From: Candidatus Gastranaerophilales bacterium
Lineage (GTDB): Bacteria > Cyanobacteriota > Vampirovibrionia > Gastranaerophilales > Gastranaerophilaceae
NCBI GenBank assembly: GCA_947626645.1
Contig: CANQSZ010000003.1
Location: forward strand, 1 to 40,713
Direction: 5' to 3'
Length of the DNA: 40,713 nucleotides
This document shows, piece by piece, positions 19,132 through 29,711 of this stretch. Each line of letters starts with the position of its first letter. Position 1 is the first letter of the stretch. The notes below the pieces were generated by a model that had not been told where the DNA came from, searched no databases, and was given only the letters and a program-made list of their open reading frames with translations. The position numbers and the translations under genes were made by a program.

Positions 19132-19806
19132 ATGCTCGATAATAAAAATCCGCAAAAAGTAAGAGAGATATTTGAAGAAATTTCACCATATTACGATTTT
19201 ATGAACAACATAATATCTGTCGGGTGTCATCTTTTGATAAAGTTTTTGTCAATAAAAGAACTTAATCCGCAACCGAATACAATGCTTTTGGATTTGTGCT
19301 GCGGAACGGGTGATTACACAAAAATTATTTCAAAATTTTATCCGAAAGTTAAAACAATAGGTCTTGATTTTTGCGATAAAATGCTTAAAATCGCGAAATT
19401 AAAAAATCCCAAAGGAACGTTTATGCGCGGCGATTGCACAAGTTTGCCGTTTAGGGATAACGAATTTAATTATGTAACAATGAGTTTCGGGCTCAGAAAC
19501 ATTCAAGACCGCAAAGCCGCGTTGGAAGAAATCTATCGCGTGTTGGATGTCGGCGGATTGTTTTTGCATTTGGATTTTGGCAAGCATAACTTTTTAAGCA
19601 AAATTTTTAACATCTTGGTACCGATTGTTGCGATGTTTTTTGGAAAAAATAAAAATCATTATGAGTATTTAATAAATTCCAAAGAGGAATTTCCACAGCC
19701 GACGGCTTTAATCAGAGAATTTAAAGCCGTTGGGTTCAAGTATAAAAAAAGACGCGATTATTTGTTTGGGGTTATATCCTTACAAATTATGGAAAAAGTA
19801 AATTAG
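19132..19806 (+). CDS. ubiE: Demethylmenaquinone/ubiquinone C-methyltransferase (UbiE/MenG family)
   Basis: SAM-dependent class I methyltransferase of quinone biosynthesis, 224 aa. The N-terminus VREIFEEISPYYDFMNNIIS is the UbiE/MenG family signature. Motif I is LLDLCCGTGDYTK, followed by the acidic residue in TIGLDFCDKML. Motif II-like sequences are MSFGLRNIQDRKAALEEIYRVLDVGG. GGAGT precedes the ATG. The likely product in an anaerobe is menaquinone or a related quinone, but no other men/ubi gene is in the window. The gene is divergent from DUF4127 and convergent with the dehydrogenase gene; the two stop codons overlap as TTAG. Confidence 0.9.
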   Translation: MLDNKNPQKVREIFEEISPYYDFMNNIISVGCHLLIKFLSIKELNPQPNTMLLDLCCGTGDYTKIISKFYPKVKTIGLDFCDKMLKIAKLKNPKGTFMRGDCTSLPFRDNEFNYVTMSFGLRNIQDRKAALEEIYRVLDVGGLFLHLDFGKHNFLSKIFNILVPIVAMFFGKNKNHYEYLINSKEEFPQPTALIREFKAVGFKYKKRRDYLFGVISLQIMEKVN

Positions 19807-20825
19807 ATAACTCTGTTTTGTTTTCCTCCGTAAAGAAAATCAGAAAGCCCGTCAAAGGTTGCTTCAAGAATATAATCGATTGATTCTTGTGTTTCGTAGG
19901 CAATATGCGGGGTTATAATTACGTTGGGGTAAGAATTTAATTCCTTTACAATTTTGGATTCTTCCAAACACATCAACGATGAGCGTTCCAATTTTTTTAT
20001 GTCGTCCATACAAGAAGAATCGATGCAAGCTACAACGTCTAAACCTACCCCGCAAAGTTTTCCGTTTTTTACGAATTTAACAAGCGATTCGATGTCTATA
20101 AGTTCACCTCTTGAAACATTTATTAAGTATGAATTTTGTTTCATTTTCTTGAATTGGTTAGTTGATAGCATGTGGTAATTATTTTCGTTGTAAGGTACGT
20201 GAAGTGAAATTATATCGGCATTTTCAAGCAAATCGTCAAGGTTTGTGTATTGAACATTGTATTTTTCTTCGAGTTCCTGTTTTGGGAATAAATCGTAGGC
20301 AATAATTTTCATTCCGAAAGCGTGCGCAATTGTGCAAACTCCGGCTCCGATTGCACCTGTTCCTATTACACCGAGGGTTAAGGCGTTCAGGTTTCTTCCC
20401 GTGTAATTTGTTTGAATACATGTTCCGCTTTTAACGGCTTGCATGGCAGGGTATAAGTTTCTTACAAGCGATAGTATCAGCGCAAACGTAAATTGGGCAA
20501 CCGATATATTTCCGTAAGATTCCACGTTTATCAGTGCGATGTTTTTGTCTATCAACGGCTGCAAATCTATGTGGTCATACCCTGTTGAGCGGGTCGAGAT
20601 TATTCTTAAATTCTTAAACTTGCTTACAACTTTTTTTGTAACTTCCGAGGTTATAAAAACACTGATTACCATTGTTTGTTCAAGTTCTTCTGGGGATAAT
20701 GTTTCCACCGTTTCTTCGTTTAAACTTTCCCTGAAGTATTTTATATCAAAGTTGTCCGGTTTATGTTTATTCAAAAAATTTTTTTCATCTTCTCTTAAGT
20801 CAAAAAAAAGCATTTTACAAGACAT
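19803..20825 (-). CDS. D-2-hydroxyacid dehydrogenase (D-lactate dehydrogenase-like)
   Basis: NAD-dependent enzyme that reduces a 2-oxo acid to a D-2-hydroxy acid, with pyruvate to D-lactate the most likely reaction. The Rossmann motif is GVIGTGAIGAGV, followed by IIAYDLFP. The substrate arginine lies in INVSRGELID, a Glu follows near the C-terminus, and the catalytic His is in PHIAYET. The start is the ATG at 20825 (MSCKMLFFDLRED), which has AAGGAG at the right distance. The frame extends 19 codons further but without a Shine-Dalgarno. The protein is 340 aa. Substrate choice between lactate, other hydroxy acids and phosphoglycerate cannot be fixed, but the length and neighbours do not suggest SerA. 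Confidence 0.82.
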   Translation of the reverse strand: MSCKMLFFDLREDEKNFLNKHKPDNFDIKYFRESLNEETVETLSPEELEQTMVISVFITSEVTKKVVSKFKNLRIISTRSTGYDHIDLQPLIDKNIALINVESYGNISVAQFTFALILSLVRNLYPAMQAVKSGTCIQTNYTGRNLNALTLGVIGTGAIGAGVCTIAHAFGMKIIAYDLFPKQELEEKYNVQYTNLDDLLENADIISLHVPYNENNYHMLSTNQFKKMKQNSYLINVSRGELIDIESLVKFVKNGKLCGVGLDVVACIDSSCMDDIKKLERSSLMCLEESKIVKELNSYPNVIITPHIAYETQESIDYILEATFDGLSDFLYGGKQNRVI

Positions 20826-20975
20826 AAGTTTTCTCCTTTTTTCAACATTATTCTTTTTTAAACAAAAAAATCCATTGTACAAAAGTGTAAGATATTGACT
20901 AAAAAATTGACTGAAAAGGCAATGAAAAGCATTTCAAAAAGTTTTATCTTAATAAAGAAAGAAAGGAGTGAAGGT

Positions 20976-21458
20976 ATGAATCACGATTTAACAGTAAGAG
21001 AGCCTGAACTTTATTTTGACAGTATCCACAGGGAACTGGACAGTTTTTTACGCGATACGTTTTTTGAACACGCTTTTGCCCACCCTCTAAATGTTATAAA
21101 AAATACAACTTTACGCCCCGCCGTAGAAGTTATCCAAAATAAGGACAATTATAAAGTGAAAGTCCAATTACCGGGGGTGAAAAAAGACGATATAGAAGTC
21201 GAACTTGATAACGATTTTATGACGATAAGTGCTGTTATACACGAAGAAAAAGAACAGGAAGAACAAGCCGAAAACAATGCCCGTTATCATACAAGCGAAT
21301 TTCGTTACGGAAAATATCAGCGCACAATATCGTTTGATTGTCCGGTAAAATTTGAAGACACAAAAGCCATATACGAAAACGGAGTGCTTAATATAACAGT
21401 TCCAAAACAAAATATCGAGGCTGCAAAACCAAAAAAATTAACAATAGAAACGAAATAA
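20976..21458 (+). CDS. Small heat-shock protein, Hsp20 family
   Basis: ATP-independent chaperone that holds unfolded proteins, 160 aa. The alpha-crystallin domain spans about residues 45-150: RPAVEVIQNKDNYKVKVQLPGVKKDDIEVEL, then FRYGKYQRTISFDCPV, and the hallmark GVLNITVPK near the C-terminus. An acidic insert (EEKEQEEQAENNA) lies in the loop. The start is the ATG at 20976, behind GGAG; the longer frame from 20895 would run through the Shine-Dalgarno. I find no CIRCE inverted repeat upstream, so HrcA control is unlikely. The stop is directly followed by the structured RNA at 21461-21620, which could be its 3' UTR. Confidence 0.92.
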   Translation: MNHDLTVREPELYFDSIHRELDSFLRDTFFEHAFAHPLNVIKNTTLRPAVEVIQNKDNYKVKVQLPGVKKDDIEVELDNDFMTISAVIHEEKEQEEQAENNARYHTSEFRYGKYQRTISFDCPVKFEDTKAIYENGVLNITVPKQNIEAAKPKKLTIETK

Positions 21459-21460
21459 AT

Positions 21461-21620
21461 TTTGAATCTGTTGCCGAAATCTCCCGCAGTTCATTGCGGG
21501 CATGCACACCATAGCGGCGCGATTCAAACGGTTGTTTCGACAGAGAGCATGAACTGTCGTGGTTGAACAACCGATATAAAGGAAATCGACTTTTAACTTT
21601 TTATAAAGTCGATTTCCGCT
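21461..21620 (+). ncRNA. Candidate structured RNA with complementary hairpin loops
   Basis: The sequence after hsp20 folds into nested perfect helices. P1 pairs TTTGAATC (21461-21468) with GATTCAAA (21521-21528). Inside it, GCCG (21473-21476) pairs with CGGC (21515-21518), and hairpin A is CCCGCA (21483-21488) with TGCGGG (21495-21500) closing the loop GTTCAT. Hairpin B has CGGTTGTT (21529-21536) with AACAACCG (21566-21573), and within it CGACAG (21538-21543) with CTGTCG (21554-21559) closing AGAGCATGAA. The loop of A is complementary to ATGAAC (21549-21554) in B. A 13-bp terminator hairpin (21581-21617) ends the element. I do not recognise a known RNA family. It may be a separate small RNA or the hsp20 3' UTR. 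Confidence 0.55.
21581..21620 (+). terminator. Terminator of hsp20 or the structured RNA
   Basis: GGAAATCGACTTT (21581-21593) pairs with AAAGTCGATTTCC (21605-21617), 13 bp perfect with an 11-nt loop, followed by GCTTTT. The T-run is short, but the stem is strong. Confidence 0.7.
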
Positions 21621-29533: not shown

Positions 29534-29562
29534 TTGACAAGTAACTATGCTTAAATTACTAT
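29534..29562 (+). promoter_or_regulatory. Promoter of the CPHG-protein operon
   Basis: A perfect TTGACA (29534-29539), a 17-bp spacer and TACTAT (29557-29562) predict a start near 29568-29570. This leaves a leader of about 145 nt before the ATG at 29713. Confidence 0.75.
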
Positions 29563-29566
29563 CAAG

Positions 29567-29711
29567 AAAAGAGGAAATGAAGTGAATATCTTCAACTGTA
29601 GCCGCAGCCGTAAAAGTCGGAACACTCAAAGAAAAACCTTAATCTTACGCGCTTATGGGATGGGGTAATAATTTTCTTAAGAAGTGTCCTCTTTTTAAAA
29701 GGGGATTTTTT
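29567..29711 (+). promoter_or_regulatory. Switch-like leader with competing pairings
   Basis: Segment 1 (AAAAGAGGA, 29567-29575) at the transcript 5' end is fully complementary over 9 bp to segment 2 (TCCTCTTTT, 29687-29695). Segment 2 can instead pair with segment 3 (AAAAGGGGA, 29697-29705), which contains the Shine-Dalgarno of the 29713 gene and is followed by six T residues, forming a terminator-like, ribosome-site-masking hairpin. The two pairings are mutually exclusive. What lies between (about 110 nt) could be a ligand-binding domain or a leader peptide. I do not recognise a known riboswitch. Confidence 0.45.
29582..29668 (+). CDS. Possible 28-codon leader peptide
   Basis: A GTG at 29582, with GAGG 7 nt upstream, opens a 28-codon frame rich in Arg, Lys and Ser (VNIFNCSRSRKSRN at the start) that ends in TAA. 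Its Shine-Dalgarno lies in segment 1 of the switch-like leader, so ribosome binding there would compete with the 1:2 pairing. There is no run of one amino acid as in classical attenuation peptides. It may not be translated. Confidence 0.2.
   Translation: MNIFNCSRSRKSRNTQRKTLILRAYGMG

Follow-up and report, generated by a model that had tools for sequence, protein, structure and literature searches.

A pseudoknotted, probably free-standing RNA family in Candidatus Gastranaerophilales

The segment following the small heat-shock gene hsp20 in a 40,713-nucleotide contig of a Candidatus Gastranaerophilales bacterium (the whole stretch that was analysed, hereafter the window) holds a structured element which, on comparison with its homologues, almost certainly belongs to a new RNA family. 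Our preferred reading, to which we give a probability of about 0.6, is that of a compact, pseudoknotted, free-standing non-coding RNA of Candidatus Gastranaerophilales, most likely acting in trans and linked to stress. These non-photosynthetic relatives of the cyanobacteria are common, uncultured gut bacteria, and covariation supports in them both the RNA family and its co-varying pseudoknot. The genomic setting (hsp20, raiA/HPF) points to stress survival and dormancy, and the alignment and model in hand make the family testable.

Fold, homologues and covariation

The core of the RNA, from P1 to P4, occupies 21461-21573 of the + strand, where the covariance model matches 21461-21579; all features below lie on this strand unless stated otherwise. 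It comprises a closed domain, made of P1 (8 bp, 21461-21468/21521-21528), P2 (4 bp, 21473-21476/21515-21518, with the 5' strand GCCG) and P3 (6 bp, 21483-21488/21495-21500), and a hairpin domain, sometimes with an extra hairpin, made of P4 (8 bp, 21529-21536/21566-21573) and the P5 hairpin (21538-21559, with a 6-bp stem at 21538-21543/21554-21559). Pair counts place the 3' strand of P2 and then that of P1 within 21515-21528. The terminal loop of P3, GTTCAT (21489-21494), is not conserved in sequence when loops are compared, and a predicted pseudoknot joins the strand after P3 to the loop of P5. The core is followed by a putative intrinsic terminator, a 13-bp hairpin (21581-21617; stem 21581-21593/21605-21617) with a T-rich stretch behind it; a terminator-like hairpin follows the RNA in 65 of 68 homologues, against 57 of 204 (28%) shuffled sequences. 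Members of the family measure about 115-130 nt, or 170 nt and more with insertions.

All helices from P1 to P5 and the terminator are found in the minimum-energy or centroid fold of 21461-21620, and every helix listed in a first-pass annotation of the window (8, 6, 8 and 6 bp, one of 4 bp and the 13-bp terminator) is present in both sequence and fold. The fold energy is -57.9 kcal/mol; 200 sequences shuffled with their dinucleotide content kept gave -37.1 +/- 3.9 (z = -5.4), and no shuffle did as well. The reverse strand likewise folds well (z = -5.1), as expected from the long perfect stems; we retained the + strand because of the direction of hsp20, the + strand terminator with its T-rich tail and the promoter-like motif seen in relatives. 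The element had also been described as lying outside any ORF. A 60-aa ORF of the minus strand (21388-21570) does overlap it, although coding is unlikely, since the homologues differ by indels and their pairs change on both sides.

BLAST returned three homologues from the same genus, at 73-75% identity, and plain DNA similarity farther out was noise; covariance models were therefore used, the first (R1) being seeded with three hand-structured sequences. R1 matched 33 of 194 related genomes, with one match each, R2 matched 66 of 383 genomes of the order and R3 matched 49 of 289 genomes of the class. More than 60 genomes carry a full-length copy, one per genome, and all belong to a single family-level group (Candidatus Gastranaerophilales), the sole match outside being a weak, partial R1 match of 70 nt (G087). 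Named records of the relatives correspond to Candidatus Gastranaerophilales or Melainabacteria. Among 72 hsp20 loci of named genomes, 33 match R3 at E < 0.001, all directly 3' of hsp20 and on the same strand, and weaker R3 matches in these loci occupy the same position, two excepted. Another 23 of these hsp20 loci, from more divergent genera, were read as divergent copies, many of them with large inserts after P3; in 18 of the 23, a P1 of 7 bp or more is retained around GCCG/CGGC, directly behind hsp20 (0.1 expected from shuffles), with the pairing chosen by the script lying off the usual place in L163 and possibly also in L141 and L146. Large inserts, sometimes carrying extra hairpins, were also observed between the pseudoknot strand and the 3' strand of P2 in L053, L067, L079-L087 (one genus), L148, L150, L164 and L165, which shows that this junction tolerates extra domains.

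Covariation was counted in an alignment (A7) of 42 homologues, over 37 scored pairs, leaving out rows where P4' was misplaced (extra hairpin after P5) or P3' misread (one genus). Standard pairs make up 91.9% of cells; shuffling lowers this share to 66.7 +/- 0.8%, and sliding the partners by 1-3 columns lowers it to 32-38%. Two-sided changes occur in 389 cells against 112 after shuffling. As A7 was fitted to the helices, these counts are raised for P1-P5, though not for the pseudoknot, which stood outside the models; even so, the margin is large and visible by eye. Compensatory changes, which the first-pass annotation had proposed to look for in the helices, are strong: 33 of the 37 pairs show at least one two-sided change. 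Such changes reach every pair of P1 (8/8), P2 (4/4), P4 (8/8) and P5 (6/6), and 5/6 pairs of P3.

Few of the unpaired bases are conserved (A21477, 21479-21480, 21489, A21506, 21507, G21514 and A21552), and no long conserved unpaired stretch was found among them. Grouped around P2, P3 and the pseudoknot, they would suit a packed tertiary core better than an antisense seed. The window copy deviates at two of these positions, with A at 21479 (U in 41/42) and G at 21489 (A in 41/42).

Pseudoknot and kissing loop

The first-pass annotation had singled out a kissing contact between the P3 loop GTTCAT and ATGAAC (21549-21554). The complementarity does exist in the window, with 6 of 6 pairs, but it is not conserved: the other 41 homologues form 0 to 4 of the 6 pairs, and we reject the contact as a feature of the family. 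Comparison argues instead for a pseudoknot between CATGC, the five bases after P3 (21501-21505), and GCATG in the P5 loop (21547-21551), which is very probably a real and conserved tertiary contact. The two strands are paired in 42 of 42 sequences (100% of cells), with two columns covarying, and this pairing was never part of any covariance model. Bases 21549-21551 are common to the kissing pair and the pseudoknot, so that the two contacts are mutually exclusive.

The pseudoknot switches as a unit between clades. Beside CATGC/GCATG, the six co-varying classes include CATGT/ACATG (4 loci), CGTGC/GCACG (4), CGTGG/CCACG (11), CGTAC/GTACG (9) and TGTAC/GTACA (1), these counts leaving aside 24 sequences for which the P3 rule was too strict, most of them covered by the A7 count or by a hand check. 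The table of class versus complement is nearly purely diagonal. Pairing extends to 7 bp in several loci (CATGTTA/TAACATG, CGTGGTG/CACCACG), and one copy of CATGC, in L116, lacks its complement.

Genomic neighbourhood and expression

The sole constant neighbour of the RNA is a divergent D-2-hydroxyacid dehydrogenase gene (19806-20828, minus strand; PF02826/PF00389), which synteny places upstream in 67 of 68 loci, the 68th having just 165 nt of upstream sequence. In the window, hsp20 (20976-21458; profile match to PF00011, E = 9.7e-17) ends with its stop codon 2 nt before the RNA. It stands between the dehydrogenase gene and the RNA in 37 of the 68 loci, where the distance between the hsp20 stop codon and P1 ranges from -4 to +12 nt. 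The RNA is present with no adjoining hsp20 in 31 of the 68, and the hsp20-less genomes tested hold either a distant hsp20 paralogue (about 35% identity) or none, the orthologue being gone. A lack of covariation and of conservation away from hsp20 had been named beforehand as evidence against a genuine RNA; the opposite is seen on both counts. Since the RNA is kept across dozens of species even where its usual host gene was lost, it is probably retained for a function of its own.

A promoter-like element, AATGAAA...TTATCTTAATAA, which sequence comparison marks as a putative promoter, lies upstream of hsp20 (20921-20955). Relatives that have hsp20 carry a comparable element before this gene, and many hsp20-less relatives carry one directly before the RNA. 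AATG(A/T)(A/T) occurs at most 100 nt upstream of the RNA in 28 of 31 hsp20-less loci (10.9 expected), and the combined element AATGAAA-N-TAT..AATGT, ending 2-60 nt before P1, in 18 of 31 (1.2 expected), both expectations being those of base-shuffled AT-rich sequence alone. As regards transcription and processing, we infer that the RNA most likely constitutes a separate gene, one that shares, or has taken over, the hsp20 promoter. In the window it would probably form the 3' part of the hsp20 transcript and be released by a cut near the stop codon; in hsp20-less relatives, transcription from this kind of promoter would probably begin at the RNA itself and give a primary transcript of about 120-190 nt.

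Downstream, raiA/HPF is found in 34 of the 68 loci. The window has the fab operon and not raiA at this place, the RNA lying between hsp20 and a chain of ORFs that continues into yceD, rpmF and the fab genes. Elsewhere, what lies downstream changes from one clade to another, and some loci (L052, L057) have a convergent gene next. Comparison shows the RNA to be independent of raiA as well as of hsp20. Several hundred nucleotides separate the RNA from a 73-aa gene that precedes raiA. The encoded cysteine-containing protein (MFRSRDMGRAVAVRRW...) has no Pfam match and is 89-99% identical across the genus, a striking figure as other proteins of the same species here are 40-80% identical; its gene lies at 912-1133 in L009, 2011-2232 in L010, 2029-2250 in L011 and, in the window's own genome, 1205-1426 in L038. 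In L040-L048, the stretch from the RNA terminator to the 73-aa gene, which reaches as far as about 500 nt past the RNA start, contains a conserved AAATATTTTACAA(T/A)TCTTAATA motif together with several CATG words, for instance GGGCATGCCC palindromes and ACCATGTCATACCATGG; the raiA operon may have its promoter or leader here.

Possible function and alternative readings

What would such an RNA do? From the gene context we infer action in trans, which we hold to be probable for this free-standing RNA. Its role would most likely be that of a structural or protein-bound RNA, in a setting of stress and ribosome hibernation suggested by hsp20 upstream and by raiA/HPF downstream in half of the loci. 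Binding of a protein, a ligand or the ribosome seems likelier than antisense action, given that the family has no long conserved unpaired stretch and that a search of 26 genomes from the order yielded no Hfq scoring past the Pfam cut-off, the E. coli and B. subtilis controls being positive. A weak Hfq-like match below the cut-off, with a stop inside, was seen in the window's genome only (G000:C60:5373-5495). A more specific and rather doubtful proposal would make the RNA a ligand sensor, a ribozyme or the core of an RNP, associated throughout the lineage with stress and ribosome hibernation, a counterpart of clostridial ModT without a shared fold.

The element could also work in cis, as a structure in the 3' UTR through which the hsp20 mRNA is stabilised or terminated, or through which temperature is sensed for hsp20, with no independent role. 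The close spacing between P1 and the hsp20 stop codon in 37 loci is consistent with this, as are the 33 of 72 loci of named genomes where the RNA comes right after hsp20. However, 31 of 68 copies have no adjoining hsp20, a covarying pseudoknot would be needless in a mere terminator, and the helices are strong, unlike those of a melting thermometer. Known RNA thermometers (ROSE, fourU) lie in 5' UTRs and occlude the ribosome-binding site, whereas the present one is found on the 3' side of hsp20, with a terminator at its end. We consider such a cis role unlikely, and the temperature-related hsp20 3' UTR suggested by the first-pass annotation, as a purely hsp20- or temperature-linked role, is unsupported because the RNA persists without hsp20. 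The compact, aptamer-like pseudoknotted fold with a terminator directly after it, and the presence of raiA downstream in 34 of 68 loci, might otherwise evoke a riboswitch or attenuator acting through the terminator on the downstream gene, that is, on the raiA/HPF operon in half of the genomes. A riboswitch would be expected to accompany a constant class of downstream gene; here that gene varies between clades and is sometimes convergent, as in L052 and L057, which led us to reject cis control of the downstream gene as the main reading. The several hundred nucleotides before the 73-aa gene, the paucity of conserved unpaired bases and the folds inspected, in which no alternative anti-terminator pairing was seen, also make this regulation quite improbable.

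For the origin of a free-standing RNA from the 3' end of a stress gene, the nearest model, by analogy, is CpxQ, a 3' UTR-derived RNA of about 60 nt that is bound by Hfq and acts by base pairing (PMC9438474). CpxQ stems from the 3' end of a stress-response mRNA, with a 5' end near the stop codon and its own terminator (PMC9438474), and the 37 hsp20-linked copies have, by position, all three of these traits. The RNA described here differs in being closed, pseudoknotted and present even without the parental gene. That it should itself be an antisense RNA of this type, pairing with target mRNAs through a seed with the help of Hfq, is suggested by its place at the 3' end of a stress-gene mRNA, the cut expected near the stop codon and the intrinsic terminator (PMC9438474), but appears very unlikely when no conserved unpaired stretch reaches seed length, the 26 genomes hold no Hfq above the Pfam cut-off, and CpxQ itself is so short.

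As for known families, the Rfam/Infernal comparison recommended by the first-pass annotation matched none: searches at permissive E-values over the window and homologue loci returned sub-threshold chance matches only. In setting, the nearest known RNA is the raiA motif/ModT (RF03072), homology with which is not detectable. It is likewise free-standing and pseudoknotted, often adjoins raiA and has an intrinsic terminator (PMC11706538). It occurs in Bacillota and Actinomycetota, however, and its model counts about 209 positions, with 8 helices and 2 pseudoknots (PMC11706538), whereas the present RNA has 5 helices, 1 pseudoknot and another size, and gives no Infernal match: with the limit set at E 5, RF03072 matched none of three homologue loci; the window scan did not show it either, and it was not found in 30 genomes, in a search where control genomes were equally silent. 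6S RNA is comparable as a free-standing structured RNA linked to growth state but differs in fold; window scans with RF00013 gave no match at the element, and a separate 6S-like locus, slightly under the cut-off, lies on another contig of the window's genome (G000:C32:3961-4137). SRP RNA (RF00169) scores above the cut-off on G000:C69, away from the element. ARAGORN finds no tmRNA in the window; elsewhere in its genome nothing stronger was seen than a weak RF00023 match below the cut-off (G000:C13:18495-18570, 18.3 bits), and tmRNA may be divergent, permuted or absent from the assembly. With no match at the element and the 6S, SRP and weak tmRNA matches lying elsewhere, the raiA motif, 6S, SRP and tmRNA were ruled out as its identity; the first-pass annotation, too, had recognised no 6S, SRP or tmRNA features. 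Although raiA adjoins in half of the genomes, as it often does for the raiA motif, a divergent copy of a known RNA is extremely improbable, as is a chance set of hairpins, which covariation excludes.

Orphan structured RNA candidates of comparative genomics (PMC2864571, PMC8040213, PMC11109978) likewise combine a covarying structure with an undescribed function. The main text of PMC8040213 does not mention Melainabacteria, Hsp20 or raiA, and we found no structured RNA of the lineage's own in the main texts of open-licence papers on Melainabacteria/Gastranaerophilales.

A second, unrelated RNA fold was observed after hsp20 in other Gastranaerophilales. It reads CCGC...CCACTTAA...TTAAGTTTACAGGAAA...GAGATT..GCGG, then a terminator, and shows two-sided changes in 8 of 23 predicted pairs; in six of its loci, no Rfam family matched within an E-value limit of 0.5. 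It lies at 2975-3110 in L144 and at the same place in L168, L173, L174, L177, L179, L182, L184, L186, L187 and L190. The site after hsp20 may thus be a fixed seat for structured RNAs. The window also contains, at 29556-29634 on the + strand, an AdoCbl-II (cobalamin) riboswitch with a score of 41.9 bits, above the Rfam cut-off.
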